Shown here: positions 3,151-40,329 of the stretch, piece by piece
How the letters are laid out: each line of letters opens with the position of its first letter
Numbering within the stretch: the first letter of the stretch is position 1
From: an uncultured Bacilli bacterium
Lineage (GTDB): Bacteria > Bacillota_I > Bacilli_A > RF39 > UBA660
Reading direction: 5' to 3'
DNA length: 42,941 nt
Assembly (NCBI GenBank): GCA_944329375.1
Contig: CALVIB010000009.1
Span: 1 to 42,941, forward strand
Notes under the pieces: model-generated
What the model was told of the DNA's origin: nothing
Databases searched by the model: none
What the model saw: only the letters and a program-made list of their open reading frames with translations
Made by a program: the position numbers and the translations under genes

Positions 3151-3366
3151 TAAAAAAACATCCTTAGGATAAGGACGTTTATGAGCGTGGTACCACCTTA
3201 ATTTGTAAGATTTTCTTACCTTTAAACATATAACGGTGTTTGCCGCTTTAACCTACATATCGATTAGAGTGCTCCAGAGCCATTCCAAGTAGTTACCTTG
3301 TTTATTTCCACCATACATAAACTCTCTATAAAGTTACCTACTTTTCTTTCCTTCAGTGCATTTAAT
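3151..3366 (-). promoter_or_regulatory. T-box riboswitch leader with intrinsic terminator
   Basis: Read on the minus strand, the leader contains an AGAGAG box followed by GGTGGAAA (Stem I distal elements), the specifier-side block GGAATGGCTCTGGAGC, and the T-box AAGGTGGTACCACG. The T-box can form the antiterminator: AAGG pairs with CCTT and ACG with CGT around a seven-base UGGUACC bulge. The competing terminator is ACGTCCTTA, loop TCC, TAAGGATGT, then seven T. The bulge base after UGG is U, which requires a tRNA discriminator A (true of both Leu and Met tRNA). The specifier codon is not fixed by eye: CTC fits the usual position after GAATGG, while ATG overlaps GAATGG. Downstream genes are dut, a DHH phosphoesterase and metG. 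Confidence 0.93.
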
Positions 3367-10856: not shown

Positions 10857-11798
10857 ATGAATGAAAAATTCGGCTGTGAAGGCTGCAATTTAAATGATAA
10901 TTATGGGCTTTTATATGTGAATGAATGTAATGATGGGATACTTGGAAAGGAATATAAAATTAAGGCAGCTCCACAATATCAAACAGTTCAGCCTGGTATG
11001 GAATATTTAATGGATCCTAAACCTATTTTTGATAATTCAAATTATAAAGGTAGTGGTAAATTAAAAGATAAAGTAGCGATTGTTACTGGTGGAGATTCTG
11101 GTATTGGTAGGGCTGTTTCTGTTTACTATGCGAAAGAAGGGGCAGTTGTTATTATTGTTTATTATAATGAACATGAAGATGCGGAATACACTAAGAGATA
11201 TATTGAAAGTTTTGGGGGCAAATGTTTTTTAATTTCTGGAGACTTAAAAAGTCCTGAATTTTGTAAGATGGTAATTAAAAATACTGTGGAAAAGTTTGGA
11301 AAGGTGGATATTTTAGTTAATAATGCTGGGGTACAATTTCAACAAAAAAAATTAGAGGATATCTCTAATGAACAATTTGATTATACAATGAAAACAAATA
11401 TTTATTCAATGTTTTATTTGACTAAAGAAGCTTTACCTTATATGCAAAATGGTTCTATTATTAATACAACTTCGGTTACTACTTTTTATGGAGAGCCTGA
11501 ATTAATTGATTATGTTACTAGTAAAGGAGCCATAGTTGGATTTACTAGGGCTTTAGCTACTAATTTAGCTACTAAAGGAATTAGAGTTAATGCGGTGGCA
11601 CCTGGCTATTTTTGGACTGCACTTCAACCTAGTTGCTGGAGTCCAAATAAAATTCCAACACTTGGTGCAGACAGTGATATGCGAAGATGTGCGAATCCTT
11701 ATGAAATTGCTTCTATTTATGTTTATTTAGCTAGTGATGATGCTTCTTATACAACAGGTCAAGTATTCCATATTAATGGTGGACAGTATAAAGGTTAG
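10857..11798 (+). CDS. Short-chain dehydrogenase/reductase, YhdF/GsiB-type
   Basis: NAD(P)-dependent oxidoreductase of the classical SDR fold. Cofactor motif VTGGDSGIGRAV, structural NNAG (LVNNAGVQ), catalytic Ser in TTSVT and YxxxK in YVTSKGA, with VAPGYFWT after it. The stretch before the Rossmann fold (QTVQPGMEYLMDPKP...YKGSGKLKDKVA) is the N-terminal extension typical of the stress-linked YhdF/YhxC/YghA group. Odd feature: the first 30 residues contain a CEGC pair and a further Cys (NECND), which is unusual for this group. Ribosome binding site AGGGGAGAG. It is convergent with rsmI and transcribed against the trend of the left arm. Substrate is not predictable. Confidence 0.88.
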   Translation: MNEKFGCEGCNLNDNYGLLYVNECNDGILGKEYKIKAAPQYQTVQPGMEYLMDPKPIFDNSNYKGSGKLKDKVAIVTGGDSGIGRAVSVYYAKEGAVVIIVYYNEHEDAEYTKRYIESFGGKCFLISGDLKSPEFCKMVIKNTVEKFGKVDILVNNAGVQFQQKKLEDISNEQFDYTMKTNIYSMFYLTKEALPYMQNGSIINTTSVTTFYGEPELIDYVTSKGAIVGFTRALATNLATKGIRVNAVAPGYFWTALQPSCWSPNKIPTLGADSDMRRCANPYEIASIYVYLASDDASYTTGQVFHINGGQYKG

Positions 11799-11827
11799 AC
11801 TTTATACTTTTTTAAGTAATGATTTAT

Positions 11828-11851
11828 AAAAAAATAAGGTTTTAACCTTAT
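11828..11851 (-). terminator. Terminator of the dnaX-rsmI gene string
   Basis: On the minus strand ATAAGGTT, AA, AACCTTAT followed by seven T; overlaps the rsmI stop codon. A wider pairing (TGATTTATAA / TTATAAATCA) also exists for the convergent SDR gene. Confidence 0.7.
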
Positions 11852-12684
11852 AAATCATGATACTCATTATATATTTTGCTTTTTGGAACGTTTCTTTCTT
11901 TAGCTACTTTTTTTATAGCTTCATTTGGAGTTAATCCATCTTCTATGTATAAACTAACATGTTTTTTTATAGATAAATTATTAAATGTTTCTTTTTCTTG
12001 GTTTCCTTCTACTACAATTACGATTTCTCCTTTAATGTTTTCCACAGTTTTAAGTAAGTTTTCCACAGTTTCACGGATAACTTCTTCATATTTTTTACTT
12101 ATTTCTCTAACAATAGCTATTTTTCTATTTCCTAAGATTTCATAAATATTATTTAATGTTTTTGTTAATCTATGAGGAGCTTCATAAAAAATAATAGGGT
12201 AGGGATTAGATTTTAAATTTTCTAATTCTTTTTTTCTTTTACTTTCTTTACTATTTAAAAATCCATAAAAAGTAAATGGTCCACCACTTAAACCTGACAT
12301 TACAACTGCAGGTATTAGGGCTGTTGGACCTGGTAAACATACAACATTATAGCCATTTTCAATAGCGTTTTTAACTAAAATATAACCTGGATCACTTATA
12401 ACAGGAGTACCTCTATCACTTACTATAGCAATATTTTTTCTTTGTTTTAAATAATCTATTTCTTTTTCTTCATTTTGACTTTCATTATATAAATGACTTG
12501 ATATTAATCTATTTTTTATTTCAAAATGATTTAATAATTGTTTAGTTGTTCTTGTATCTTCAGCAAATATTATATCTACTTCTTTTAAAATGTTTAAGGC
12601 TCTTATAGTTATATCTTCTAGATTACCAATTGGAGTTGGAACTATATATAAAGTAGGGGAGCCATCATAACTTTTTTGTATCAT
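11848..12684 (-). CDS. rsmI: 16S rRNA (cytidine-1402-2'-O)-methyltransferase
   Basis: SAM-dependent methyltransferase of the SUMT/tetrapyrrole methylase fold that modifies C1402 in the ribosome decoding site. Motifs: YIVPTPIGNLEDITIRA at the N-terminus, AEDTRTTKQLL, SDRGTPVISDPGY, and LPGPTALIPAVVMSGL. 278 residues, typical. Lies 11 bases after trmN6, in the same order as yabB-yabC of Bacillus. Confidence 0.96.
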   Translation of the reverse strand: MIQKSYDGSPTLYIVPTPIGNLEDITIRALNILKEVDIIFAEDTRTTKQLLNHFEIKNRLISSHLYNESQNEEKEIDYLKQRKNIAIVSDRGTPVISDPGYILVKNAIENGYNVVCLPGPTALIPAVVMSGLSGGPFTFYGFLNSKESKRKKELENLKSNPYPIIFYEAPHRLTKTLNNIYEILGNRKIAIVREISKKYEEVIRETVENLLKTVENIKGEIVIVVEGNQEKETFNNLSIKKHVSLYIEDGLTPNEAIKKVAKERNVPKSKIYNEYHDL

Positions 12685-12695
12685 TTTTTATCATC

Positions 12696-13415
12696 TCACT
12701 TAAAATATTTTTGGATTTCTTCGGTATAACTACCATCTTTATTATGACTATATAAAGGTGGGAGTATTTTTAATCCTTTTTTTCCATTTTTTTTACCTTC
12801 AATTAATAAAATATTGGCATCTTTGTTTTTACCTGGATAAACTAATCTAATTTTTTTTGGTTCAATATTATATTTTCTCATTGTAATTAAAATATCTATT
12901 AATCTTTCTGGTCTATGAACTAAACCTAAAGTTCCACCATTTTTCAAAAGTTTTCTAGCAATTTTTAAGATATCTTCTAAATTTAGTGTTACTTCATGTC
13001 TAGCAATAGTTTTATAGTCGTTTTTATTAAATTTTGATTTTTTTTTAACTTCAAAATATGGTGGATTACAAGTTATTATGTCATAAAATTCTGGAGTGGC
13101 ATTTTTATAATATTCTTTAATATCTTCATTAATTATTGTTATTCTATTTTCTAAATTGTTTAATTTTACTGATTCTTTGGCCATTTCGCTTACTTCTTTT
13201 TGAATTTCTAGACCTATAATATTAGCTGTTGTTTTTTGAGATATAATTAAAGGGATAGGGGCATTACCTGTACCAATATCTAAAATATTTTTTGTGCTTT
13301 CATTTATGGTAATAAAATTTGGAAGTAATACTGAATCTAAGGAAAAGTTAAACATTTCATTATCCTGAATTATTTTTAAATTTTCATAGCCCAATAAATA
13401 GTTAATTACTCTCAT
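12696..13415 (-). CDS. trmN6: tRNA1(Val) (adenine-37-N6)-methyltransferase family protein
   Basis: Rossmann-fold SAM methyltransferase with motif I LDIGTGNAPIPLI and the N6-adenine catalytic motif NPPYF, in the YfiC/YabB group. The N-terminal FNFSLDSVLLPNF is characteristic. The ATG at 13415 (MRVINYLLGYENL) is preferred; three codons upstream is a TTG. The start lies inside the last codons of ricT (14-base overlap), so translation is probably coupled. 239 residues. Target nucleotide inferred from the family. Confidence 0.9.
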   Translation of the reverse strand: MRVINYLLGYENLKIIQDNEMFNFSLDSVLLPNFITINESTKNILDIGTGNAPIPLIISQKTTANIIGLEIQKEVSEMAKESVKLNNLENRITIINEDIKEYYKNATPEFYDIITCNPPYFEVKKKSKFNKNDYKTIARHEVTLNLEDILKIARKLLKNGGTLGLVHRPERLIDILITMRKYNIEPKKIRLVYPGKNKDANILLIEGKKNGKKGLKILPPLYSHNKDGSYTEEIQKYFK

Positions 13416-14184
13416 TTTTATCAACTTCTATTATGCCATGTTCTGGAACATTTACCTTATATTTTTGATTTAATATATCTAAGCTAGTTATAGTTCCCTC
13501 TCCATACTCCGTATTAATTTTGTCGCCTATTTTTTTCATGTCTTTTTTATAACACTCGTATGTATCTTCTTCATATTTTAAGCAACACATTAGTCTTCCA
13601 CACACACCGTTAATTTTGCTGGGGTTTAAAGCTATATTTTGATTTTTAGCCATGTTTATAGAAACGGCATTTAAATCTTGTAAAAATCTAGCACAACATA
13701 GTTTTTGGCCACACGGACCATATCCTCCAACTTCTTTAGCTTTATCACGAATACCTATTTGTCTTAATTCGATTCTAACTTTATAGATTGATGCAAGTTC
13801 ACGTGCTAGTTCTCTAAAGTCAATTCTTGTATCGGATAAGAATCTAAAAATTAACTTATCTCTATCAAATGTATAACTAGCATCTATGATATGCATATTC
13901 ATATTATTTCTTTCAACTATTTTACGGCATACTCTTAAAGCTTCGGCTGAGTCTTTAAGGTTTTTTTTATGTTTTGTGAAATCATTTTTATTGGCAATTC
14001 TAATTATTTTTTTTAAATCTTTTTTAGGAGAATTTATTGCAATTTTTGGATTTATAACAGTTCCAAATTGAAGTCCGTGCTCGGTCTCAACAATTACTGT
14101 GATGTTTGGTTTTAAATTAAATTTTCCTGGATCAAAATAATAGACTTGTCCATAGGGTTTAAAATTAACACCGACAACTATCAC
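13402..14184 (-). CDS. ricT: PSP1-domain regulator RicT (YaaT)
   Basis: A 260-residue PSP1 protein. In Bacillus RicT joins RicA and RicF in an iron-sulfur-containing complex that governs RNase Y mRNA processing and phosphorelay-dependent development. Here the conserved cysteines are visible in GGYGPCGQKLCCARF and in NGVCGRLMCCLKYE, the cluster-binding pattern. The start is GTG at 14184, with GGAAGGAG eight bases upstream and a four-base overlap with the holB stop. Whether RicA/RicF partners exist cannot be seen in this window. Confidence 0.93.
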   Translation of the reverse strand: MIVVGVNFKPYGQVYYFDPGKFNLKPNITVIVETEHGLQFGTVINPKIAINSPKKDLKKIIRIANKNDFTKHKKNLKDSAEALRVCRKIVERNNMNMHIIDASYTFDRDKLIFRFLSDTRIDFRELARELASIYKVRIELRQIGIRDKAKEVGGYGPCGQKLCCARFLQDLNAVSINMAKNQNIALNPSKINGVCGRLMCCLKYEEDTYECYKKDMKKIGDKINTEYGEGTITSLDILNQKYKVNVPEHGIIEVDKNESN

Positions 14185-15122
14185 TTTATCACTCCTTCCA
14201 ATGTTATAAGTAATTTATCCATTAACAAATTTAGATTTATATTATATTTTATTAGTTCTTTTAATTCAACTATTTTATTTAATTTATAGCATATTTCATC
14301 TTGTGTGTTATTTTCGGCAATCGTTTTTATGTTATCATTTATTTCAAATATTTCTAATGGTTTATTTAGTTTATAATTTAATATATCTTTATAATAATTA
14401 ATCATTATGTCATAAGCCATTTCTGTTTCTTCTTTAGTTGTTATGTAATTATTCCATGTTTTTCCTACATAAAGTAGGGTATTCATATGATTTTTTTCAT
14501 AGTAATTTATGAAATCTATTACTTTAGTTATTTTTTCATCTAATGTGGTTTCATCTATTTTATTTGAATTGATTTGTTTTTTTAACTTTTCTAAATAATT
14601 TTGGGTGTCATCTATATTAGATGATTTTAATCTTAATATCTGGCATCTAGATCTTATGGTTGTTAAAACGCTATAGATATTATCTGTTATCAAAATGGCA
14701 ACTAGGTTATTATCTGGTTCTTCTAAAAATTTTAATATGGAATTAGCAGCAGATTTATTTAATCTATCAGCATGATTTATTATATAAATTCTTTTATTTC
14801 CAATTATGGCTTTAGTATTAAATTCTTTCTGAAGGTTTTGTAATTGTTCTTTTTTTATCCAAAGGCCATCTGGTTCAATTATTTCTATTTCTGGAAAGTT
14901 GCCAGAGTCTATAACTTCACATTGATGGCAATTACCACAGTTTTCTTTGGTTAGATTTTTTTTAGGGCATAAAAGTGATTTTACAAATGACATAACAAAA
15001 CTAAAAGTATCATAAAAACCGCCTGTTTCTATTAAATAGGCGTGAGAACATTTGTCATTTATTATGGCATTTTTTAATATTTGATATACAATAGGCTGAG
15101 AATTTTTATAACCATCTAACAT
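14181..15122 (-). CDS. holB: DNA polymerase III subunit delta'
   Basis: Clamp-loader subunit that works with DnaX to load the DnaN ring. AAA+ fold without a functional Walker A, as expected for delta'. A zinc-module pattern CPKKN...CGNCHQC is present near residues 52-68, followed by IINHADRLNKSAANSILKFLEEP and the SRC motif TTIRSRCQILRL. 313 residues. The tmk gene that precedes holB in Bacillus is missing here; bofA lies immediately upstream. Confidence 0.94.
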   Translation of the reverse strand: MLDGYKNSQPIVYQILKNAIINDKCSHAYLIETGGFYDTFSFVMSFVKSLLCPKKNLTKENCGNCHQCEVIDSGNFPEIEIIEPDGLWIKKEQLQNLQKEFNTKAIIGNKRIYIINHADRLNKSAANSILKFLEEPDNNLVAILITDNIYSVLTTIRSRCQILRLKSSNIDDTQNYLEKLKKQINSNKIDETTLDEKITKVIDFINYYEKNHMNTLLYVGKTWNNYITTKEETEMAYDIMINYYKDILNYKLNKPLEIFEINDNIKTIAENNTQDEICYKLNKIVELKELIKYNINLNLLMDKLLITLEGVIK

Positions 15123-15133
15123 CTTTTATCCTC

Positions 15134-15319
15134 CTAATATACTACAAGTCTTATTACAATTAAAAAAATAAATGCTGGTATACTAAAGATAGTAATTAAT
15201 AATATGGTAATTATGTTTATTGGAATTATGGCTGAGGCTGGAACTATGACGTTATAACCATATAACATGAAGAAACTCATGATAAGTTTTTTAAAAGTTT
15301 TAAATAATTTATTAAGCAT
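15134..15319 (-). CDS. bofA: BofA-like membrane protein (pro-sigma-K processing inhibitor family)
   Basis: A 61-residue protein, almost entirely two membrane segments (SFFMLYGYNVIVPASAI and NIITILLITIFSIPAFIFLI). The PIN..T.L....F.IPAF..L pattern matches BofA, and the locus directly after recR is the bofA site in Bacillus. BofA holds the SpoIVFB protease inactive in the mother cell during sporulation. Start at ATG 15319 with GAGGTG four bases upstream. Divergent at residue level, so the family call rests on topology, pattern and position together. Confidence 0.75.
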   Translation of the reverse strand: MLNKLFKTFKKLIMSFFMLYGYNVIVPASAIIPINIITILLITIFSIPAFIFLIVIRLVVY

Positions 15320-15357
15320 AAAACACCTCAATAAATTATATAGTTTTTAGTTTAATT

Positions 15358-15957
15358 TTATGAGATAGTTGTACGGTCCATAATAGCCATTTCTAAAGTT
15401 AATGGGTCGATGTAATCAATATCTGCTCCCATAGGAATTCCATGAGCTATTTTTGTTATTTTTACATCGGTATTTTCTAGCATTTTTCTAATGTATAATG
15501 CGGTTGTTTCACCTTCAACACTTGGTTTTATGGCTAAAATGACTTCTTTGATATTTTCTTCTTTTATTCTTTTAATTAATTTATCAATATGAATATCTTC
15601 TGGATTTATACCTTCTAATGGGGAAATTAAACCACCTAAAACATGATATACTCCTTTATAAGAGCCTATTTTTTCAAATAGGATTACATTTTTGCATTCT
15701 TCAACTACACATAGTGTTTTGGCATCGCGAGTTTGGTCTTGGCAAATTTGGCATAAATCGTCTTCAGTAAGACTTCCACATCTAGAGCAAGTTTTTATTT
15801 TTGTTTTACTATCTTTTAATGATTTACTGAATAAATCTATTATATCGTTATCCATATTTAAAGAGGCGAGTGCTAACCTTTCAGCTGTTTTTTCGCCTAT
15901 TCCTGGAAATTTTTTAAAACATTCTATTAGATTTAAAATTGTTTTTGGATAATTCAT
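15358..15957 (-). CDS. recR: Recombination mediator protein RecR
   Basis: Acts with RecO/RecF to load RecA on gapped DNA. Visible parts: the helix-hairpin-helix KFPGIGEKTAERLA, the four-cysteine zinc finger (CSRC...CQIC), and the TOPRIM domain beginning LCVVEE with the following VLGGLISPLEGI and IAHGIPMGADIDY. 199 residues, standard length. Start overlaps the ybaB stop (TAATG). Confidence 0.97.
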   Translation of the reverse strand: MNYPKTILNLIECFKKFPGIGEKTAERLALASLNMDNDIIDLFSKSLKDSKTKIKTCSRCGSLTEDDLCQICQDQTRDAKTLCVVEECKNVILFEKIGSYKGVYHVLGGLISPLEGINPEDIHIDKLIKRIKEENIKEVILAIKPSVEGETTALYIRKMLENTDVKITKIAHGIPMGADIDYIDPLTLEMAIMDRTTIS

Positions 15958-16253
15958 TAGAATAAACCTGGCATTCCTTTAGTATATTTGCCCATTTTTT
16001 GTTCAGTTTCATTATCTATTTGATTATTGGCATCATTGATTGCTACTAATATCATGTCTTGTAACATTTCGATGTCATCTTTTTCTAGATTATCAGCATC
16101 TATTTTTACTTCTATTACTTCTTTTGTACCTTTTACTTTTACTGTAACAAAAGAAGATTTTCCTTCAAATATTTTTTCATCAATTTGTTTCTTTTCTTTT
16201 AACATGTCGTTTTGTAATTTTTGAGCTTGTTTCATCATTGCTTGAATATTCAT
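15957..16253 (-). CDS. ybaB: YbaB/EbfC family nucleoid-associated protein
   Basis: Small dimeric DNA-binding protein, 98 residues, always encoded between dnaX and recR. Begins MNIQAMMKQAQKLQ and ends with MPGLF, as in the family, with the central FVTVKVKGTKEVIEVKID strand pair. Confidence 0.94.
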   Translation of the reverse strand: MNIQAMMKQAQKLQNDMLKEKKQIDEKIFEGKSSFVTVKVKGTKEVIEVKIDADNLEKDDIEMLQDMILVAINDANNQIDNETEQKMGKYTKGMPGLF

Positions 16254-16274
16254 TTTCTTTCCTTCTTTCTTTTT

Positions 16275-18032
16275 TTAATTATATTCAATTATATCTTCAA
16301 ACATTGTCTGAATATTATCTTTACTTTCTTCTTCTTTGAAGATATCTTCTAAGTTAAAATGTTCTTCTTTATAAATAAATGGTCTTAGTTTATTATTAAA
16401 TTCTTTTTTGATTGTTTCCCATTCATCTAAATAAGTTGCAATTAAATTATATTTTTTATTTAGAATTTTGGCAATAGTTTCTTCTAAATCTAATAAATTT
16501 TCATTAAATAAATCAGCTAATCTTTTTGTTTTATAGACAAATATTAAGTTTTCTTCACTAGCTGCTTTTAAAATTCCATCTAACAGCATTGAGGCACTAT
16601 TACTATAATCTGGGTCTAGCAATAAATCATTTAGTAATTCTAAGGATGGTTTTATGTTTCTCACTTCTTTTTTAGAAAAATGGGCGAGGGTATTATCTAT
16701 TCTTATTTTTTTGATATTTTCAATAGTGGATATTATTTTTTTATTTACTTTTTTCACAATTTGGTTTTGATTTTTTTGTTCTTGAATACTAGAAAATTCA
16801 TTGAATGTGTTTTTTTGTTCGTTTTTTGTTTGTATTTTTATATTTTTTTCCACATTTTTTTCAGTTTTTTCCACATTTTGAACTATTTTTGAAGGATTTT
16901 TAACATTTTCTGTTGAATTTGGTTTTATATATTGGATTTTTTGCTCGTTTTCCACTATATTTTTTGATTTTTCAGAAATTATTTTAATTATAGAAAGTTC
17001 AAACAAAAGTTTACTATTATTATTGTTTTTCATTTCAAATGAGTACTTATTTAGAATTTCAATTATATTAAACAACTCTTTTACACTAATTTTATTAGAA
17101 ATTTCTTCATAATTTTGAATATTTTGAGTTCTTTCTTTAAAATATTTTGGTGCTTCTTTAAATAATATAATATTTCTAGTGAAATTAATAAATTCTTCTA
17201 ATAGTTTTACAAAATTTTTTCCTTTTTCGTTATATTTATCTATTTTTTCTAGTATTTCATCTAATTGGTTTTCAATTATGTTTTCTAATAGTTCTTTTAA
17301 ATTTTTTTCTGTTAAGGTTCCATTAATTTCATGTATATCTTCGATTGTAATTTTTCCTTCAGTATAGGCTCTTGCTTGGTCTAACATACCAACTGAATCA
17401 CGCATTCCACCATCGGCTAGGGTAGCTATTTCATTTAAAGCATTAATATCTATATCTATTTTTTCTTTTTCAGCAATTTGTGTTAAGTTTTTAACTATTG
17501 CTTCATTACTTATTTTTTTAAAATCTAAGCGTTGACACCTTGAAAGAATTGTTTCTAGTACTTTATGGGGGTCTGTAGTTGCCAGTATGAATATTACATG
17601 AGCTGGTGGTTCTTCTAATGTTTTTAATAGAGCATTAAAAGCACCTTGAGTAAGCATATGAACTTCATCTATTATATATACTTTGTATTTACCATAAGCA
17701 GGTAATAAGTTAACTTTATTTCTAAGTTCTCTTATTTCATCTACACCATTGTTACTAGCGGCATCTATTTCTATGATATCACTATTATTTTCAATTGTAC
17801 AACTTACACATTTTCCACAAGGCTTACAATCTACTGGATTTTCACAATTTATTATTTTTGCAAATATTTTGGCAATGCTTGTTTTTCCTGTTCCTCTTGG
17901 TCCAGCAAATAAATAGGCATGATTAATTTGATTATTTTGGATGGAGTTTTTTATTATTTTTACGATAACATCTTGACCATATACATCATCTAATGTTTTA
18001 GGTCTATATTTTCTATATAATGCTTGATACAT
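16275..18032 (-). CDS. dnaX: DNA polymerase III subunits gamma/tau
   Basis: ATPase motor of the clamp loader. Starts MYQALYRKYRPKTL; the ATG at 18032 follows AGAGGTGG, so the 14 upstream in-frame codons are not used. Walker A GPRGTGKTSIAKIF, a zinc module (C....C..C..C in CENPVDCKPCGKCVSC), Walker B region DEVHMLTQGAFNALLKTLEEPP, and SRC motif SRCQRLDF. 585 residues. The tail from about residue 370 is lysine/asparagine rich and repetitive (NVEKTEKNVEKN), followed by a folded C-terminal domain likely to contact the polymerase. No clear slippery A-run was identified for making a separate gamma form. Confidence 0.97.
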   Translation of the reverse strand: MYQALYRKYRPKTLDDVYGQDVIVKIIKNSIQNNQINHAYLFAGPRGTGKTSIAKIFAKIINCENPVDCKPCGKCVSCTIENNSDIIEIDAASNNGVDEIRELRNKVNLLPAYGKYKVYIIDEVHMLTQGAFNALLKTLEEPPAHVIFILATTDPHKVLETILSRCQRLDFKKISNEAIVKNLTQIAEKEKIDIDINALNEIATLADGGMRDSVGMLDQARAYTEGKITIEDIHEINGTLTEKNLKELLENIIENQLDEILEKIDKYNEKGKNFVKLLEEFINFTRNIILFKEAPKYFKERTQNIQNYEEISNKISVKELFNIIEILNKYSFEMKNNNNSKLLFELSIIKIISEKSKNIVENEQKIQYIKPNSTENVKNPSKIVQNVEKTEKNVEKNIKIQTKNEQKNTFNEFSSIQEQKNQNQIVKKVNKKIISTIENIKKIRIDNTLAHFSKKEVRNIKPSLELLNDLLLDPDYSNSASMLLDGILKAASEENLIFVYKTKRLADLFNENLLDLEETIAKILNKKYNLIATYLDEWETIKKEFNNKLRPFIYKEEHFNLEDIFKEEESKDNIQTMFEDIIEYN

Positions 18033-18054
18033 TTTACCACCTCTATCAGTTATA

Positions 18055-18084
18055 ATTATATCACACTTATCCACAATAAAAGAA
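18055..18084 (-). promoter_or_regulatory. dnaX promoter containing a consensus DnaA box
   Basis: Extended -10 TGATATAAT (-10 at 18055-18060) just upstream of the dnaX ribosome binding site; no strong -35. A perfect DnaA box, TTATCCACA on the plus strand, lies at 18067-18075, inside the -35/-10 spacer, where bound DnaA would block polymerase. Confidence 0.55.
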
Positions 18085-18116
18085 AATAAGTTTTGTGTTT
18101 TTTTATATATAATTTC

Positions 18117-18521
18117 TTATTTTCTTTTGTTTTTGAAAAAGTTTTTTAATAATTGTTTATAGTTTTCCACATCCTCCATCTTGATTTGCATTGGGTCTGG
18201 TAAATTATGATGTTTTTCTTGTTTAGCTGTGTATATTATACACTTTATTCTTGCTTGCTTTATGGCTTCCATACACATATTGCATGGTTCTAATGTTGTG
18301 TATAAAGTACATTCGTTAAGATGCCATGTTTTTTTCTTTTTACAGGCTTTTTCTATTGCATTTATTTCAGCATGTTTAGTTATTTGATGTGTTTTTTCTC
18401 TTGTGTTATGTCCTTTTGATATTATTTTATTATTTTCAACAATTACAGCACCAATAGGAACATCATTTGTTTTTAAACTTTTTTTTGCTTCTTTTATAGC
18501 TATTTCCATATATTTATTCAT
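18117..18521 (-). CDS. tadA: tRNA-specific adenosine deaminase
   Basis: Deaminates A34 to inosine in tRNA-Arg(ACG). The zinc-binding and catalytic residues are in HAEINAIEKA and the PCNMC motif (TTLEPCNMCMEA). The start is ATG at 18521, preceded by GGAGG; an open frame continues 27 codons further upstream but that part is the SRP RNA gene and its terminator. 134 residues. tadA, SRP RNA and dnaX are neighbours in Bacillus too, in a slightly different order. Confidence 0.95.
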   Translation of the reverse strand: MNKYMEIAIKEAKKSLKTNDVPIGAVIVENNKIISKGHNTREKTHQITKHAEINAIEKACKKKKTWHLNECTLYTTLEPCNMCMEAIKQARIKCIIYTAKQEKHHNLPDPMQIKMEDVENYKQLLKNFFKNKRK

Positions 18522-18535
18522 AGATAACCTCCAAC

Positions 18536-18615
18536 AAAAAAGGTACACACACTTAGAGGTCCTTAAGGCTGCTATCTTCCGATTCTGACCTGATTCAGAC
18601 ATAAGTGTTGTACCA
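18536..18615 (-). ncRNA. ffs: Signal recognition particle RNA (small bacterial type)
   Basis: The minus strand carries the conserved apical domain GGTCAGAATCGGAAGATAGC followed by AGCCTTAAGGACC: GGAA tetraloop region, symmetric and asymmetric internal loops that bind Ffh. The ends pair: GGTAC with GTACC, and ACACTTA with TAAGTGT. A run of six T directly follows the closing stem and serves as terminator. About 73-80 nt, i.e. the short 4.5S-like form without an Alu domain. Confidence 0.96.
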
Positions 18616-18620
18616 AATAT

Positions 18621-18649
18621 ATATTACAATATTTATTGTAATTTATCAA
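18621..18649 (-). promoter_or_regulatory. Promoter of the SRP RNA gene
   Basis: TTGATA, 17-base spacer, TAATAT; places the start at the first G of the mature SRP RNA, seven bases downstream. Confidence 0.8.
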
Positions 18650-18687
18650 CGATTATTTTAGTTTTCCACAATAATTTTTATTTTTAA

Positions 18688-18703
18688 TGTTTCACGTGAA
18701 ACA
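18688..18703. promoter_or_regulatory. parS site 1
   Basis: TGTTTCACGTGAAACA, a perfect 16-bp palindrome matching the ParB/Spo0J centromere site, extended to 20 bp by flanking AA/TT. Confidence 0.95.
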
Positions 18704-18900
18704 TTAAAGCGACGAAAAAAATATTTTTGTTTTCAAAATAAAATATATTTAAAAAGGCTTACATTATTTTAATAATATTCTTATTATAAATAATTTGTAA
18801 GAGTTTCATGTTTTTGTTTAATATTTTGAATATTAATTTTTTTAATATAGAAAAATGTGCATAAGAATTTAGTTATCTAATTTCATTATGGTTTTAACAA

Positions 18901-18916
18901 TGTTTCACGTGAAACA
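18901..18916. promoter_or_regulatory. parS site 2
   Basis: Identical 16-bp palindrome, 213 bases from site 1. Confidence 0.95.
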
Positions 18917-19091
18917 TTGTTAAATATTAAAAAATATTATTTTAAATATTACCACTTTTATTAATATAATTATATTTTTTGTTTCAATTTTATAATATTT
19001 AGAATAGTGATAAAAATATTATTTATATAACTGACAATTATTATATATTATCTATTAATAAATAATATATATTACGAATATTTTGTTTTAA

Positions 19092-19107
19092 TGTTTCACG
19101 TGAAACA
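19092..19107. promoter_or_regulatory. parS site 3
   Basis: Identical 16-bp palindrome, 191 bases from site 2. Confidence 0.95.
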
Positions 19108-19286
19108 TTGTTAAATATTAAAAAATTATTATTTTAAATAATACCATTTTTATTAATATAATTTATATTTTTTTGTTTCAATTTTATAATATTTAGGATA
19201 TTGATAAAGATATTATTTATATAACTGACAATTATTATATATTATCTATTAACAAATAATATATATCACAAATATTTTTGTTTTAA

Positions 19287-19302
19287 TGTTTCACGTGAAA
19301 CA
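19287..19302. promoter_or_regulatory. parS site 4
   Basis: Identical 16-bp palindrome, 195 bases from site 3; followed by a weak DnaA-box-like TGTGGAAAA at 19310. Confidence 0.95.
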
Positions 19303-19506
19303 TTAAAACTGTGGAAAACACTTTTTGTTTTTAAAATATGTTATATTTAAAAGAGCTTACATTATTTTAATAATGATTTTATTATAAATTAATTTGTAAG
19401 AATTTTTTGTTTTATTTAATATTTTGAATATTAAATTTTAATTTTTTATTAGTATAGAAAAGGACTATAAGAATTTAGTTATCTAATTTCATTATAGTCC
19501 TAACAA

Positions 19507-19522
19507 TGTTTCACGTGAAACA
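19507..19522. promoter_or_regulatory. parS site 5
   Basis: Identical 16-bp palindrome, 220 bases from site 4 and only four bases beyond the gyrA stop codon. Confidence 0.95.
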
Positions 19523-19526
19523 TTAA

Positions 19527-21968
19527 CTAATTTTCTAAATTTTCTTCAGAAACTTCTTTATCTAGCAATGCAATACTACTTACTGTTTGATTATCTTTTA
19601 AGTGAATTAGTCTTACTCCTTGAGCAACTCTACCAGTTGTAGATATTTGTTCAACAGATAATCTTATGATAATCCCACTATTAGTTATTATCATAAGGTC
19701 TTCATCACCTTTAACTATTTTAAATGAGACAATATTTCCATTTTTTTCGGTAATATTTAAAGCTTTTACACCTTTACTTCCTCGGTGTGTCATTCGATAT
19801 TCGGTTATGTTTGTACGTTTTCCATATCCTTTTTCTGTTACAACTAAAATTTGTTCATCAGGATTGGCTATTTCACAACCAACACATTTACCATCATCTA
19901 AATCTATTCCTTTAACACCTGAAGCTGTTCTACCCATTATTCTAATTTCCTGTTCATTGAATCTAATCATACGTCCATTTGAAGCGGCAATTACTATTTC
20001 GTTTTCCCCAGTTGTCTTTTTAACTGAAATTAATTGGTCATTTTCTTTTAATGAAATAGCTATTTTTCCACTTTTTCTAATGTTTTCAAATTCAGATAGG
20101 GCAGTTCTCTTAATTAATCCATTTTGTGTACAAAATACAATATTATTATTTTCTTCATTTTGGTCTATTTTAAGCATTGCAGTTACTTCTTCATCTTTTT
20201 CAAAAGGTAATAAATTAACTATTGGTATACCTTTTGATTGTCTGCTATATTGCGGTATTTCATATCCTTTAACTCTATAAGCTTTTCCTTTGTTTGTGAA
20301 GAACATTAGGTAATCATGTGTTGTCATTGATATAAGTTTTTCCACAAAATCATTTTCATTTGTAGCCATTCCTTTAATGCCTACACCTCCACGATTTTGA
20401 GTTTTATATGTTTCACTAGTCATACGCTTAATATAACCTTTATTTGTTAAGGTTACAACGATGTTTTCCACAGGTATGAGTGATTCATCCTCAATATAGT
20501 CAATCGCTGTCATATCGATGTTTGTACGTCTCTCATCGCCATATTTATTCTTGATTTCTAACATTTCTTGTTTAATAATTTCTAATACTTTAGTTTCGGA
20601 TGCTAAAACTTCTTTATAATATTTTATTTTTTCTAATAAGTCATTTAATTCTGCTTCTATTTTATCTCTTTCTAAGCCAGTTAATCTACGTAATTTTAAT
20701 TCTAAAATAGCTTCTGCTTGAATATCTGTTAAACTATATTTTTCTATTAATTTAGTTTTTGCCTCTGTGTCTGTTTTTGCTTCTTTAATTATTTGAATAA
20801 AGTCATCAATATTATCTAGAGCTATTTTATAACCTTCTAAGATATGAACTCTTTTTTCAGCTTTATCTAAGTCAAATTTTGTTCTTCTTATAATAACTTC
20901 TTTTTGGTAATCAATATATTTTGAAATTATATCTTTTAAACCAAGTGTTCTTGGGGTATTATTATCTAACATTAAAAGGATTATTCCATAAGTTGTTTGA
21001 AATTGGGTATGTTTATATAAGTTATTTAAAACAACTTGTGGATTAGCATCTTTCTTTAATGTAATAGTTATTTTTATACCATCTTTTAAATCTGTATGAT
21101 AATCAGATATACCATCAATTACTTTTGTATGAACAAGCTCAGCAACTTTATCTTTTAAATCTGAAGTATTAACACCATATGGAACTTCATCAATAATAAT
21201 ATAATGGCGACCATTTTTTTCTTCAATTGTAGCTTTACTTCTAATAGTAATTGTTCCACGGCCTGTTTCATATGCTTTTTTAATACCACTATTACCTAAA
21301 ATAGTTGCACCTGTTGGAAAGTCTGGCCCTTTAATATATTGCATTAATCCATTTGTATCAATGTCTGGATTATCAATGTAAGCAATGCAACCATCAATTA
21401 CTTCTCCTAAGTTATGTGGTGGTATATTGGTTGCCATACCAACAGCTATCCCCATTGTTCCATTAACTAATATGTTTGGAAATCTAGATGGTAAAACTGT
21501 TGGTTCTTTTCTTGTTTCATCATAATTTGTTGTAAAATCAACTGTATTTTTATTAATATCTCTTAATAATTCTAAAGATATTTTTGCTAATCTAGATTCG
21601 GTATAACGCATGGCTGCTGCGCCATAACCTTCAATATTACCAAAATTTCCATGACCATCGATTAATGGATAACGATAACTAAAATCTTGAGCCATACGAA
21701 CCATAGCTTCATAAATACTAGAATCCCCATGTGGGTGATAATTACCCATTACTTCTCCGACTGTTTTGGCACTTTTTTTGTGGGGTTTATCTGGTGTATA
21801 TCCAGATTCATACATTGAATATAAAATACGGCGATGTACAGGTTTTAAGCCATCTCTTAAGTCTGGTAGAGCTCTTGATTTGATGACACTCATAGAATAT
21901 TCTATAAATGATGTTTCAATTTCGTTTACTATGTTATTTTCTTCTAATCTATCTCTTGTGTGATCCAT
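19527..21968 (-). CDS. gyrA: DNA gyrase subunit A
   Basis: Breakage-reunion subunit of gyrase, which adds negative supercoils with GyrB. N-terminal [20 protein letters not shown], quinolone-pocket helix [15 protein letters not shown] (the Ser is present), and the catalytic Tyr in [11 protein letters not shown]. The GyrA box appears as QNRGGVG in the first blade of the C-terminal beta-pinwheel, supporting gyrase rather than topoisomerase IV. 813 residues, normal. Follows gyrB by 12 bases and ends against parS site 5. Confidence 0.96.
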
Positions 21969-21980
21969 AGGTTTACCTCC

Positions 21981-25021
<3,041 letters not shown>

Positions 25022-25097
25022 GTTTTACCTCACTACCTATTTTCGTGCTACTAAATTTAAAATTATAGTATTCTACATACTCCTATACCTCATAACC

Positions 25098-25106
25098 ATT
25101 ATACCA
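25098..25106 (-). promoter_or_regulatory. Candidate recF-gyrB-gyrA promoter
   Basis: Extended -10 TGGTATAAT about 75 bases ahead of recF; the -35 is poor. It lies between the comK terminator and recF, where a promoter is expected. Confidence 0.45.
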
Positions 25107-25126
25107 CAAAATGGGCTTAAAAACGT

Positions 25127-25154
25127 AAAAATAGACAAAATATAGTCTATTTTT
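25127..25154 (-). terminator. Terminator downstream of comK
   Basis: AAAAATAGAC, 8-base loop, GTCTATTTTT: perfect 10-bp stem with the T-run in the 3' arm, starting one base after the comK stop. Confidence 0.75.
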
Positions 25155-25155
25155 A

Positions 25156-25617
25156 TTACAATTTTGCTTCATTTTTGCGACTTTTTAAAATTAAAAGTAA
25201 TTTGGTAGCTCTAAGTATTTGATTTTCAAAAGATTCATATGATACTTGAACTTCTATTTTTTGATTATTATCAAATAAAATTTGAACATTATTTCCAATT
25301 CTTTTATATTCATTAATATTATTTAAAGCAATCCATGTACAGTTGTTATTTTCATAAGATGCGGTTGGAAATAAAATTATTTCTCTTGTTTCTTCTATTA
25401 TTATTGGTAATTTGTATTTACTTCCTAAAGAATATTTTGAACCACTTAATCTTCCTTTAAAAGAACTACCATAATAAGCACAACTATTTTCGATTATTTT
25501 TTGAATTGGTAACATTACAGAAATATTATCTCTTTTTTCAATTACTATTGTTGAAAAGTCATCTTTTGGTATAAGAGCGCATGTTGAAGCATTAATTTCG
25601 TATTCTTCTTTAATCAT
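25156..25617 (-). CDS. comK: ComK-family competence transcription factor
   Basis: A 153-residue protein matching the ComK pattern: INASTCALIPKDDFSTIVIE at the N-terminus, SCAYYGSSFKGRLSGSKYSL in the middle, KLPIIIEE...IILFPTASYENNNCTWIALNNI after it. In Bacillus ComK is the master activator of DNA-uptake genes. Shorter than B. subtilis ComK (192), missing mainly the C-terminal tail. It occupies the place of yaaA/rlbA between dnaN and recF, which is unusual. It has its own terminator on either side. Ribosome binding site AAAGGAGG, directly preceded by a perfect 8-bp hairpin. Confidence 0.85.
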   Translation of the reverse strand: MIKEEYEINASTCALIPKDDFSTIVIEKRDNISVMLPIQKIIENSCAYYGSSFKGRLSGSKYSLGSKYKLPIIIEETREIILFPTASYENNNCTWIALNNINEYKRIGNNVQILFDNNQKIEVQVSYESFENQILRATKLLLILKSRKNEAKL

Positions 25618-25627
25618 AAATCCTCCT

Positions 25628-25645
25628 TTGTCTTTTTAAAGACAA
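25628..25645 (-). promoter_or_regulatory. Leader hairpin abutting the comK ribosome binding site
   Basis: TTGTCTTT, AA, AAAGACAA, immediately followed by AGGAGG and the comK start. Loop size is small; it may protect or hide the binding site. Confidence 0.4.
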
Positions 25646-25705
25646 CTCTCTTATACTCATTTATTTGGTCGAATTTTGTTTATTTTTGTCGATAAAGGTA
25701 ATTTT

Positions 25706-25736
25706 TTAAAAAAAAGAACTTTTTTAATAAGTTCTT
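25706..25736 (-). terminator. Terminator of dnaA-dnaN
   Basis: AAGAACTT, short A-rich loop, AAGTTCTT, then a run of eight T on the minus strand; overlaps the last codons of dnaN. Confidence 0.75.
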
Positions 25737-26845
25737 ATTGGTAATATTAGCTGTATTAAATCATCCGATTCTATATTTTTTAAAATTATTGGTTTAATTT
25801 CTCCATTGAACATTAGTTCTATTTCTTCTGATTCTAAAGCTTTTATTGATTCCATCATGAATTTTGAGTTAAAAGCTATTTTTATTTCACTATTATTATT
25901 TTTTTCCACAGTTATTTTTTCTTCTACATTTCCTATTTCTGGAATATTTGAAGATATAATAGCTTCATTATTATTTGTTTCAAATTTTATTGTGTTTTTA
26001 TCACTTTCGTTTGTTAATAGGGAAGCTCTATCAATAGCACTGTATAAATCATCATATTTTACTTTTAACGTTAATTCATAGGTTTCTGGTATTAATTTTG
26101 AAGTATCAGGATACGTTCCACTAATTAATCTTGTCATCATATTTATTTGGCCAAATTTAAATACTACTTTATTAGCAAATATATGCATTTCTAGGTTTTC
26201 TTCATCATCATTTAATAGTTTTACTAATTCATTTAAATTTTTAGTTGGAATAATGATATTAGAGTTTTCCACAGCATTATTTTCTAGAGTTATTTTTTTT
26301 ACAGCTAATCTATAAGAATCCGTGGCGGTACATTCTAAAGTATTTCCTTCTATTTTAAAGTTTATACCTGTTAATACTGGTCTTGTTTCACTAGTACTTG
26401 TAGCAAATGAAGTTTGACTTATAATTGTTTTAAATAGTTTTTGATTTAAGATAATAGGATTTTGATTAAATTCTAAGTCTAAATCTGGAAATTCATTTAC
26501 ATTACTACAATTTAGGGTAAATGATGAATTATTTGTTGTAATATATAATTTTGAATCAATTACTTCTTCAAGATTTATCATTTCATTTGGTAGTTTTCTA
26601 ATTATTTCATGAATATATCTTCCTGAAACTACAATTTCTCCTAATGTATCTATTTTTTCGATATTTTTTTTATCTATAAATGTTTTTATTGATATTTCAC
26701 TATCTGTACTCATTAAATATAAACCTTCTTCAGTTAATTCAAATTTTATACAATTTAAAATTGGTCTTAAATTTTTTGTGGATATTCCTCTTATTACATA
26801 GTTTAAATGTTCTAAGAGAATGTCTTGTTTAATTTCTAATTTCAT
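25724..26845 (-). CDS. dnaN: DNA polymerase III beta clamp
   Basis: Ring-shaped processivity clamp. MKLEIKQDILLEHLNYVIRGIS at its start corresponds to the family N-terminus; ATDSYRLAVKKI is the conserved domain-2 segment, and the C-terminal end LILPIRTY is the variant of the usual MPMRL hydrophobic-pocket tail. 373 residues. It lies 137 bases after dnaA with DnaA boxes in between. Confidence 0.96.
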   Translation of the reverse strand: MKLEIKQDILLEHLNYVIRGISTKNLRPILNCIKFELTEEGLYLMSTDSEISIKTFIDKKNIEKIDTLGEIVVSGRYIHEIIRKLPNEMINLEEVIDSKLYITTNNSSFTLNCSNVNEFPDLDLEFNQNPIILNQKLFKTIISQTSFATSTSETRPVLTGINFKIEGNTLECTATDSYRLAVKKITLENNAVENSNIIIPTKNLNELVKLLNDDEENLEMHIFANKVVFKFGQINMMTRLISGTYPDTSKLIPETYELTLKVKYDDLYSAIDRASLLTNESDKNTIKFETNNNEAIISSNIPEIGNVEEKITVEKNNNSEIKIAFNSKFMMESIKALESEEIELMFNGEIKPIILKNIESDDLIQLILPIRTY

Positions 26846-26982
26846 AAATTATTCCTCCTTTATTATTAATTTAATTTATTTTTTATTATTGATGTGGATA
26901 AGTGTGGAAAAGTATAACTTTACACTGAAAAATATAGTTATTTTACATGTGGATAAAATGTTTAAAAGTTTATTATTTTGCA
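26846..26982. other. Origin part 2: dnaA-dnaN spacer with DnaA boxes
   Basis: Perfect DnaA boxes TGTGGATAA at 26893-26901 and 26948-26956, and a one-mismatch box TGTGGAAAA at 26903-26911. All point the same way. In Bacillus the spacer between dnaA and dnaN holds the unwinding element of the bipartite origin; the AT-rich parts here fit that. Confidence 0.75.
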
Positions 26983-28326
26983 CTATTTAATTTGATTGAT
27001 TATTTTTGATATTTCTACTTCTAAATTTTTATCTTTTTTTAATTCTCTTTTTATCTTAGCAACTGAGTGCATTACTGTTGTGTGGTCTTTTCCACCAAAT
27101 TCACTTCCTATTTTTGGTAGAGATTCTTTTAAATGAATTCTACATATATACATGCCTATTTGCCTTGGTACGGCTATTTTAGATAATCTTTTTTTAGATT
27201 TTATATCTTCAACTGTAATATTATAATTGTTTGCAACTAACTGTATTACTTGGTCTATTTTATTTCTTGAGATAATGTTTTTTCCTATATAGTCTTTTAA
27301 GGCTTCTACGGCTAGTTCTAGTGTTATTTCAGAACCATTCATTATAGTAGCATATGCGAAGACTCTAGTCAAAGCACCTTCTAGTTTTCTTATGTCGGTT
27401 GTGCAGTTATTGGCAATATATTCTTTAACTTCTTCTGGTACAAAGCTACCAATTCCTTGGGCTTCTATTTTTTTATCCAATATGTCCATTCTAAGTTTAA
27501 AGTCGGGTGGTAATATGTCGATGGTTAATCCCCAGTTAAATCTTGTTCTTAATCTATCTTCTAATTTTTTTAAGTCATCTGGTGATCTATCAGATGATAT
27601 GATTATTTGTTTATTTTGTGTGTGTAATTCATTAAATGTGTTGAAAAATTCTTGCTGAGTCTTACTTGCTATTTCTAAATATTGAATATCATCTATCATT
27701 AAGACATCTATATCTCTATATTTTCTTTTAAATTTATCTACAGCTTTGAAATTACTTGTTTCACTTTTTCTATATATGTTTAAAAAATCATCGACAAATT
27801 TTTCACTAGTTACATATAATACTTTTTTGTTTGATGTTGCCATGATATAGTTTCCTATTGCATGCATAAGGTGGGTTTTACCTAAACCGCTACTACCATA
27901 TATAAATAGTGGATTATACATGGCGCCTGGTTTTTCAGCTACAGCCAAACCTATGGCTTTAGCAAATTTATTACTTTCACCAGATATAAAGTTATCAAAG
28001 GTGTATTTGCTATCAAGGCCACTTTCAAATATAGCTTCATTATTGTTTTCTACTTTAGTTTGGGGTTTATCTTCAGTTATTTCATCTGGTGTGACATATT
28101 TGAATTTAAAGATAGAACCAGTAACTTCCATAAATGTTTCTTTAATTATTTCTCCATAGTTTTCTCTTAAATGTTTTTTATGGACATCTAGTGGTACTTC
28201 TACTATGGCATATTCATTATTTAGGTCAATTAGTTTTGTGTCTTGAAACCATGTTTGAAATAAAACTGGTTTTAATTTTATTTCAATTTTGGATAAAAAA
28301 ACGGACCACATATTTTCTAAATCCAT
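26983..28326 (-). CDS. dnaA: Chromosomal replication initiator protein DnaA
   Basis: AAA+ initiator that binds DnaA boxes and melts the origin. Domain I at residues 1-75; short linker to about 105; Walker A YGSSGLGKTHLMHAI near residue 144; Walker B MIDDIQYL near 215; domain IV signature FGGKDHTTVMHSV near the C-terminus, the box-recognition helix. 447 residues, the usual length. Start ATG preceded by CGGGGGTAG. Transcribed away from rpmH. Confidence 0.98.
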   Translation of the reverse strand: MDLENMWSVFLSKIEIKLKPVLFQTWFQDTKLIDLNNEYAIVEVPLDVHKKHLRENYGEIIKETFMEVTGSIFKFKYVTPDEITEDKPQTKVENNNEAIFESGLDSKYTFDNFISGESNKFAKAIGLAVAEKPGAMYNPLFIYGSSGLGKTHLMHAIGNYIMATSNKKVLYVTSEKFVDDFLNIYRKSETSNFKAVDKFKRKYRDIDVLMIDDIQYLEIASKTQQEFFNTFNELHTQNKQIIISSDRSPDDLKKLEDRLRTRFNWGLTIDILPPDFKLRMDILDKKIEAQGIGSFVPEEVKEYIANNCTTDIRKLEGALTRVFAYATIMNGSEITLELAVEALKDYIGKNIISRNKIDQVIQLVANNYNITVEDIKSKKRLSKIAVPRQIGMYICRIHLKESLPKIGSEFGGKDHTTVMHSVAKIKRELKKDKNLEVEISKIINQIK

Positions 28327-28624
28327 ACTACTACCCCCGTTATAAATAATCTATAAACATTTTACAATAAATTTACATAATTTTCTATAAAAACTGTGGA
28401 AAAAATCGAAAAAAGTTATTAACAGACAAAAAATGTCGAATTTTAGTACTTTATGTAACGTTTCCACATAAATTGTGGATAATTATTTTTGCACATTTGT
28501 GCATAATTTATTTTTTTACACATATGTTGAAAAATAGAAAAATTGGTTTATAATATATGGAAATTTTATGTGGATATTTAAAGTGAATAATTTAAAAAAA
28601 TTTTTACTGTGGAAAACTTGAACG

Positions 28625-38685: not shown

Positions 38686-40329
38686 ATGTTCGAAAGTGGT
38701 CAGCTTACTGTTTTGAATATGAAAGATATTTTACCAAATAGGTTTCAACCACGTATTAGATTTGATGAAGAAAAGTTGGAAGAACTAGCTGAATCTATTG
38801 GTAAATACGGTGTTATTCAACCAATTGTTGTTAGGCCAGTTAGTAATAAGTTTGAGATTATTGCTGGTGAGCGAAGATACAAAGCTAGTAAACTTGCGAA
38901 TAAATCTACTATTCCTGCTATTATTATTAATCTATCTGATAAAGATAGTGAAGAAATTGCTCTTTTAGAGAATATCCAAAGACAAGAATTAAGTCCTATT
39001 GAAGAAGCCGTTTCTTATAAACGGATTTTAGACATGGGATATATTACTCAAGAAGGATTAGCTAAAAAATTAGGAAAATCTCAATCTACAATTGCAAATA
39101 AGATTAGACTTTTAAATTTAGATGATGAAGTTCAAAGTTATTTACTTAACAATAAAATTTCTGAAAGACATGCACGAAGTTTGCTTAGGATTCCTGATAA
39201 AGAAGCGCAGGTTCATATGCTTCATAGAATTGTTTCAGAAAGATTAACAGTTAAGCAGACTGATAGAGAAATAGAAAAAATAAAAGAAAAAATGGATGTA
39301 GAAAACAAAGAAGTGCAACCTGTGAATATAGAAATATCTAAAAATGAGCAAGTTAATAGTGAAAAAGATATTTTGAATAAACCTGATGAAATTGAAAGTC
39401 TATTTGATGATGACAATATAATAAAAGTTCAGAATGAAAGGGGAAAGAATATGGATATAGATAGAATTATGCGTGAGGCTAAGGATATTAATGTACAGGC
39501 ATCTGAAGCTCCTAAAGATATTTCTGGTTTAATGCATCCTAGTAATGATGTTCAAAGCAATTCAATTGTTGAAGATGATGTTAATCAATCTAATTTAGAA
39601 AATAATAGATTTATTAATGTTACGCCACAACCAGAAAATAAACCTGTTCAGTCTAGTCCAGTGCAAAGTAGTGGAGTTACTTTTGATAGTATGTTTAATC
39701 AACCTGTCAATATTACCCCTGCTTCTAGTAATATAGTGGAAAATTCAGGTGCAAATACTTTTGCTTCAAATGTTGCTCCACAGAATAATCAAGTTGTTAC
39801 ACATGCAGAGGTTAGTGGAATTCCTGAAATAGCTGTTTCTAGTGAAGAAGAAGTTTCAGATGATACTAAAAAAGTTATTTCATCTGCAGTTGCTGATGCA
39901 CTTAAGAGGTTTAATCAAAAGAAGGTTAAACAAAATGTTTCTTCTCAAAATGTTCAACCAAATGTTGGTTTAGTGCAATCTGTTCCTGAAGTGTTAGAAC
40001 CTGTTAATACTTCTATTAGTTCAGAGGTTAATCCTATACCAGTTAATAATGTAAATTTAGTACCAGAGTCTAGTATTCCAAGTACTGATATAATTGCTGA
40101 TGATTCATTAAATAATTATGAGGTTAATTCAGATAGTCAAGCTGAGACAATGGCTAGTGCGATTACCCAAGATGTTAAACCAGTTAATAATCAAGCTCAT
40201 TTTGCACAAATAGTTAAATTACTTAGAGAATGTGCAAATCAAATTGAACAAAACGGATATTATGTAAATGTTGATGAACTTGATTTAGGTAATCAATATA
40301 AAGTTACATTTACAATTAATAAGGAATAG
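38686..40329 (+). CDS. parB: ParB/Noc-type CTPase DNA-binding protein with very long linker
   Basis: Residues 1-200 are a standard ParB core: CTP-binding VIQPIVVRP and GERRYKA (61-67), ENIQRQELSPIEEA (95-108), a helix-turn-helix around 121-142 (TQEGLAKKLGKSQSTIANKI), then the KISERHARSLL helix. From about 205 to 500 the sequence is a low-complexity Asn/Ser/Val/Pro-rich stretch with no clear fold, ending in a short C-terminal domain of about 45 residues (FAQIVKLLRECANQIEQNGY). 547 residues is roughly double the usual 280-300. Position after rsmG is that of Noc; no amphipathic N-terminal helix as in Noc is seen, and five parS sites lie 19 kb away. No ParA gene is in the window. Confidence 0.9.
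   Translation: MFESGQLTVLNMKDILPNRFQPRIRFDEEKLEELAESIGKYGVIQPIVVRPVSNKFEIIAGERRYKASKLANKSTIPAIIINLSDKDSEEIALLENIQRQELSPIEEAVSYKRILDMGYITQEGLAKKLGKSQSTIANKIRLLNLDDEVQSYLLNNKISERHARSLLRIPDKEAQVHMLHRIVSERLTVKQTDREIEKIKEKMDVENKEVQPVNIEISKNEQVNSEKDILNKPDEIESLFDDDNIIKVQNERGKNMDIDRIMREAKDINVQASEAPKDISGLMHPSNDVQSNSIVEDDVNQSNLENNRFINVTPQPENKPVQSSPVQSSGVTFDSMFNQPVNITPASSNIVENSGANTFASNVAPQNNQVVTHAEVSGIPEIAVSSEEEVSDDTKKVISSAVADALKRFNQKKVKQNVSSQNVQPNVGLVQSVPEVLEPVNTSISSEVNPIPVNNVNLVPESSIPSTDIIADDSLNNYEVNSDSQAETMASAITQDVKPVNNQAHFAQIVKLLRECANQIEQNGYYVNVDELDLGNQYKVTFTINKE

Follow-up and report, generated by a model that had tools for sequence, protein, structure and literature searches.

How the start of replication is linked to the start of segregation in bacteria is still poorly understood. 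In most bacteria the parS sites are clustered within 5–40 kb, and scattered sites are found in few lineages, including Bacilli, with eight parS sites over about 0.75 Mb in Bacillus subtilis; separated parS sites are argued to cause SMC collisions (PMC8357415). Myxococcus carries 24 parS sites upstream of parAB (PMC3778016). As reviewed in PMC6399470, DnaA binds the parS region in Caulobacter, where low DnaA allows movement of the centromere without replication (Mera 2014, as cited there), the initiator RctB binds beside parS2 on chromosome II of Vibrio cholerae, and in B. subtilis DnaA is regulated by Soj, which in turn is controlled by ParB.

Here we describe a compact array of parS sites near the origin of an uncultured Bacilli bacterium, found in the 42,941 nucleotides analyzed as one stretch (hereafter the window), which make up contig 9 of an AT-rich draft genome of 1.19 Mb in 48 contigs that is 81% complete. 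With the parS clusters of Caulobacter, Pseudomonas and Myxococcus this array shares the 16-bp consensus, the nearness to oriC and the grouping of several sites, but all of its sites are confined to a single 0.8-kb gap, from gyrA to ffs/dnaX and remote from parAB, and the array is often tandem-amplified and widely different between species. The sopC locus of plasmid F is a repeat centromere made of tandem units with one ParB site each, a likeness that is clearest in those relatives having units of about 38–79 bp, whereas the parS consensus and ParB are chromosomal here and the unit length is variable. The Spo0J/Soj–parS system of B. subtilis also belongs to class Bacilli and has in common with the present one a Soj/ParB pair, a noc gene after rsmG and a bipartite-looking oriC, but its eight sites are scattered while all sites here lie in one array.

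As in the Caulobacter centromere, where DnaA enables segregation according to the review mentioned above, initiator boxes lie inside the array; unlike there, they keep two fixed directional gaps to parS, array-wide and in Bacilli. The rctA/parS2 locus of V. cholerae likewise has initiator sites adjoining a centromere, with crosstalk between replication and segregation, but its initiator, RctB, is not related to DnaA and is titrated by the locus (PMC6399470). Searching the literature for parS in tandem arrays gave nothing on point, and phased DnaA–parS pairs are, as far as our literature searches show, undescribed in Bacilli. We consider the compact array to be a variant of the known ParABS centromere, and the phased DnaA–parS pairs to be the part worth testing.

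Results

The parS array and its surroundings

The array takes up all of the space from the gyrA stop codon to ffs/tadA (Table 1), with tadA, dnaX, ybaB and recR following in that order past ffs, and with gyrB, recF, a ComK homologue, dnaN and dnaA on the other side. It contains five exact copies of TGTTTCACGTGAAACA, compared with 0.2 matches at up to three mismatches expected by chance when the whole window is shuffled by dinucleotides. Each of the five lies in the same 20-bp palindrome, AATGTTTCACGTGAAACATT, with no difference over the 20 bp. These findings confirm an earlier note on this DNA, which had described five identical parS sites in 835 bp within nested A-B-B-A long repeats beside gyrA, and which had suggested that the spacers be aligned, that parS be counted elsewhere in the genome and that the locus be compared in relatives.

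The start-to-start spacings of the sites are 213, 191, 195 and 220 bp. Alignment of the four window spacers upheld the nested repeat structure, with 165 of 194 positions identical for the outer pair (z = 14.7 versus shuffles) and 167 of 175 for the inner pair (z = 18.1), and with the similarity of A to B spacers not above that of shuffles. As B1 and B2 are 95% identical and A1 and A2 85%, the B duplication is the more recent. The location beside gyrA was also as the note had given it, with the array found 7.5–8.8 kb left of dnaA. Since the GC skew switches sign at about 28 kb and clusters of DnaA boxes are found on both sides of dnaA, the array lies about 9 kb from what is probably a bipartite oriC flanking dnaA, a closeness to the origin in keeping with a ParABS centromere.

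Table 1. Features of the window discussed in the text, with positions counted from its first nucleotide
Feature	Position	Strand	Remarks
T-box leader	3168–3365	-	
dnaX	16275–18074	-	gene
tadA	18117–18522	-	likely true start at 18522, an ATG preceded by GGAGGT; listed ORF to 18602 overlaps the SRP RNA gene ffs
ffs, small bacterial SRP RNA (RF00169)	18527–18624	-	array boundary away from oriC
DnaA box TTTTCCACA	18662–18670	+	toward parS1, 17-bp gap, 15–20-bp class of the genus
parS1	18688–18703	none	perfect 16-bp palindrome
Spacer A1	18704–18900	none	197 bp, 85% identical to A2
parS2	18901–18916	none	perfect 16-bp palindrome
Spacer B1	18917–19091	none	175 bp, 95% identical to B2
parS3	19092–19107	none	perfect 16-bp palindrome
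Spacer B2	19108–19286	none	179 bp
parS4	19287–19302	none	perfect 16-bp palindrome
Spacer A2	19303–19506	none	204 bp
DnaA box TTTTCCACA	19310–19318	-	toward parS4, 7-bp gap, 6–8-bp class; minus strand reads TTTTCCACAGTTTTAATGTTTCACGTGAAACA
parS5	19507–19522	none	ends 4 bp from gyrA stop codon
gyrA	19527–21968	-	array boundary on oriC side
ComK homologue	25156–25617		between dnaN and recF
Three DnaA boxes, dnaA–dnaN gap	26893–26956	-	one half of probable bipartite oriC
dnaA	26983–28326	-	domain IV with DHTTV box-reading motif intact
DnaA boxes upstream of dnaA	28395–28616	-	second half of probable bipartite oriC; sign change of GC skew here
Noc-type ParB paralogue	38686–40329	+	547 aa, specificity residues Q/K/N/R, after rsmG

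ParB homologues and parS sites elsewhere in the genome

A ParB of 291 amino acids and ParA/Soj are encoded side by side on contig 25, and the gene for SMC is found on contig 2. Four residues decide between parS and NBS binding, with RxxG being the parS type (PMC7383237). The contig-25 ParB reads R/M/R/G at these four positions (R173, G201), in contrast to the Noc paralogue of the window, and the former is therefore the expected reader of the array; Noc, considered as a candidate reader, was ruled out by its residues, which are of NBS type. Of the parts expected of a ParABS centromere, parS sites above chance, a ParB of parS type and ParA beside ParB were found.

As for Noc, its site ATTTCCCGGGAAAT had no exact copy in the array or in 21 genomes of the genus, and close relatives have conserved an imperfect ATTTCCCGAAAAAT that lies 53 nt upstream of noc. 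The C-terminal half of the protein is a long, variable stretch of low complexity. TIGR04285, tried as a discriminator between Noc and ParB, failed here because both proteins fell below its cut-off. In other genera, NBS sites were seen in 15 of 27 loci (0.01 expected), and some composite repeats there combine parS with the Noc site ATTTCCCGGGAAAT, such as eight parS–NBS pairs at 44–46 bp from centre to centre in G057 (L219, 4586–6656) and a 79-bp unit holding both parS and NBS in G065 (L214, 19–400).

Counting parS throughout the 1.19-Mb draft (81% complete) gave the sites of the array only, with none elsewhere at zero, one or two mismatches, and no other parS cluster was found. Scatter of the Bacillus type over a large origin domain was thus not seen in this 81%-complete draft, in agreement with the view of the earlier note that the array is compact, origin-proximal and centromere-like, unlike the arrangement in Bacillus. 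The missing part of the genome could hold some parS sites, although the relatives argue against this.

Conservation of the array in relatives

The array is not peculiar to this genome but a trait common to the whole family. All of the intact loci, 24 of 24 in congeners and 28 of 28 in other genera, had 1–12 parS sites between gyrA and dnaX; the number of parS-like sites was 3–12 between gyrA and tadA/dnaX in the genus, and 1–11 per locus in the 28 other genera of the family. Inside the locus we counted 188 parS-like sites in the congeners and 119 in the other genera, while matches within two mismatches outside the locus numbered 14 and 18, respectively, compared with 14 and 17 for a control using the reversed pattern. 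With sites outside the locus at control level, the whole parS complement is found in one intergenic array. The earlier note had missed this family-wide occurrence, as well as the placement of DnaA boxes beside parS that is described below.

The array is 0.8 kb long here, and those of relatives reach about 2 kb. In relatives the parS sites are spaced 22–357 bp apart with no helical phase, and some species have tandem units of about 38, 43, 48, 55, 63, 73 or 78 bp, each unit carrying a single site. The long repeats of the spacers are duplications local to the species, and between-species homology of spacers masked for parS was not above shuffles (blastn with unmasked spacers was dominated by AT-rich and parS matches). 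The parS sequence is invariant, and the spacers turn over completely between species. This combination of fluid spacers and constant sites points to selection for the sites and for their clustering rather than for a 200-bp repeat.

Three sites at spacings of about 200 bp were found in 11 of 291 genomes of the family. Among the genomes of 84,980 species, 85 stretches had three or more sites spaced in this way, and as these were spread over many phyla, dense parS clusters do exist elsewhere. Very dense clusters noted in other phyla had 23 parS sites in 1.7 kb of a Deltaproteobacteria MAG (L132) and 30 in 8 kb of Thermosporothrix hazakensis (L184).

DnaA boxes beside the parS sites

Counting 9-mers in the arrays outside parS, we found TGTGGAAAA, which is the DnaA box TTWTCCACA on the opposite strand, in 19 of 21 species of the genus, compared with 0.8 expected. 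The TTWTCCACA box occurred 62 times in the array spacers of the genus (1.3 expected), in 18 of the 21 species. The placement of boxes within 30 bp of parS was analyzed in 29 genomes having 199 parS-like sites, and 66 such boxes pointed toward parS with only 1 pointing away. The gaps of the former were either 6–8 bp (n = 34) or 15–20 bp (n = 32), and never 9–14 bp; on the gyrA side the gap was 6–8 bp in 34 of 34 cases, and on the ffs side it was 15–20 bp in 32 of 42 and 6–8 bp in none of the 42. These two classes lie about one helical turn apart, with a Rayleigh R of 0.92 for phasing at 10.5 bp, a statistic that overstates independence since related species were treated as independent and few ancestral events are possible. 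The two classes may indeed stem from few such events, perhaps from two founding arrangements. There were 65 distinct box–parS contexts, in which the 25-bp flanks preceding the boxes had a mean identity of 37%, and the distance has thus been kept while the sequence drifted.

The window holds one box of each gap class, and both of the box forms, TTTTCCACA and TTATCCACA, also occur in the oriC clusters of this genome. Boxes inside the centromere, known from Caulobacter, are present here, beside parS. This pairing of box and parS is genus-specific. The pattern parS-N7..22-TGTGGA was found in 0 of 391 other genomes (a sample at phylum level, those listed being of the family or class), and boxes were not enriched in the arrays of other genera, with 5 found and 2.0 expected. 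Several congeners (G023, G026, G039, G040) have arrays without the composites, which are therefore not essential in the genus. In four Treponema MAGs (L151, L178, L170, L187), boxes point at parS at 15–27 bp, often 24–25 bp, and initiator–centromere pairing may hence have arisen elsewhere too.

Of the TTWTCCACA boxes in the genome, 22 of 81 are located at positions 11285–28616 of the window, mostly within genes and left of dnaA. This 17-kb box-rich stretch looks like a DnaA reservoir specific for the genus. The surroundings of gyrB, gyrA and dnaX are box-rich in any case, and a part of the enrichment within the array is therefore regional; the congeners have the same zone. Boxes outside the array have one main orientation, with 175 versus 16 in 19 congeners. 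Close pairs of boxes in the same direction were exactly 21 bp apart in 12 of 14 cases in the genus.

Discussion

The array is probably the single compact ParABS centromere of this chromosome, and in this genus it would serve as a platform for DnaA as well. From established ParABS biology, ParB would be expected to load at the five parS sites as CTP clamps and to slide or spread over the gyrA–ffs region, to recruit SMC and to be moved by ParA; judging from its anatomy, a single compact array would also give one SMC loading point next to oriC. DnaA at the boxes by parS1 and parS4 would be placed side by side with ParB, at 7 or about 17.5 bp and on one face of the helix. Such array-bound DnaA would most likely couple the state of the initiator to the centromere, either through the timing of segregation or of ParB loading, or through exposure of DnaA to control by Soj under stimulation by ParB. 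From the sites, their exclusivity to the locus, their conservation and the box–parS geometry we infer that ParB and DnaA would bind the array, touch and act on each other. The geometry of the boxes, together with the Caulobacter, Vibrio and Soj precedents, favours a coupling of replication and segregation at the array, for which we claim no direction.

Selection might maintain DnaA–ParB composite elements on one helical face and at fixed gaps, with the initiator either licensing the centromere or being reset by it, and we judge the chances for and against this proposal to be about even. Directional and phased distances between box and parS, kept across species amid turnover of the surrounding DNA, would constitute evolutionary evidence for direct coupling. 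If the composites are what they seem, they would represent a second and independently evolved coupling of DnaA to a centromere, and their geometry would lend itself to tests at the level of single bases. This lineage of Bacilli, in which one centromere takes the place of scattered sites, also fits with the argument from SMC collisions (PMC8357415).

With 22 of the 81 boxes at 11–28.6 kb, titration is a serious rival. The array would then be a plain compact ParABS centromere, and its boxes would belong to a zone near the origin that titrates DnaA and has no dealings with ParB, as could be suggested by the location of these boxes mostly in genes and by the similar distribution in congeners. However, boxes outside the array run one way (175:16) whereas those of the array run both ways and face parS by 66:1, and only two gap classes are seen while linkers and flanks drift, for which reasons we find this explanation rather unlikely. 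It could also be that a protein other than DnaA reads the boxes next to parS, for example a genus-specific centromere or nucleoid factor, since TTTTCCACA is commoner than TTATCCACA in the loci of the genus (217 versus 34). Yet the two forms both fit the DnaA box and occur in the oriC clusters, and DnaA retains its DHTTV motif, so that a different reader must be regarded as improbable.

The proposal of the earlier note that regular spacing of about 200 bases could favour ParB clamp loading or condensation agrees with the four spacings of 191–220 bp here and with the 85 comparable stretches found among other genomes. It fails on the orthologous arrays, since spacings of 22–357 bp without periodicity rule out a functional 200-bp spacing as well as helical phasing between parS sites, and since so few genomes of the family have a triple at about 200 bp; we give a role of the spacing in setting the distance between ParB clamps very little credence. 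Least credible of all is that the array arose by unselected repeat expansion or as an artefact of assembly. The spacers are local duplications and many contigs of relatives break within the array, but parS stays invariant where the spacers turn over completely between species, and the locus is conserved across a whole family of genera. Collapse or expansion during assembly, which the note had named as a possible refutation, is unlikely, because a single contig runs through the array and reaches unique genes at either end, the copies of the repeat are not identical, and arrays are present at the same locus in more than 40 independent assemblies from relatives.
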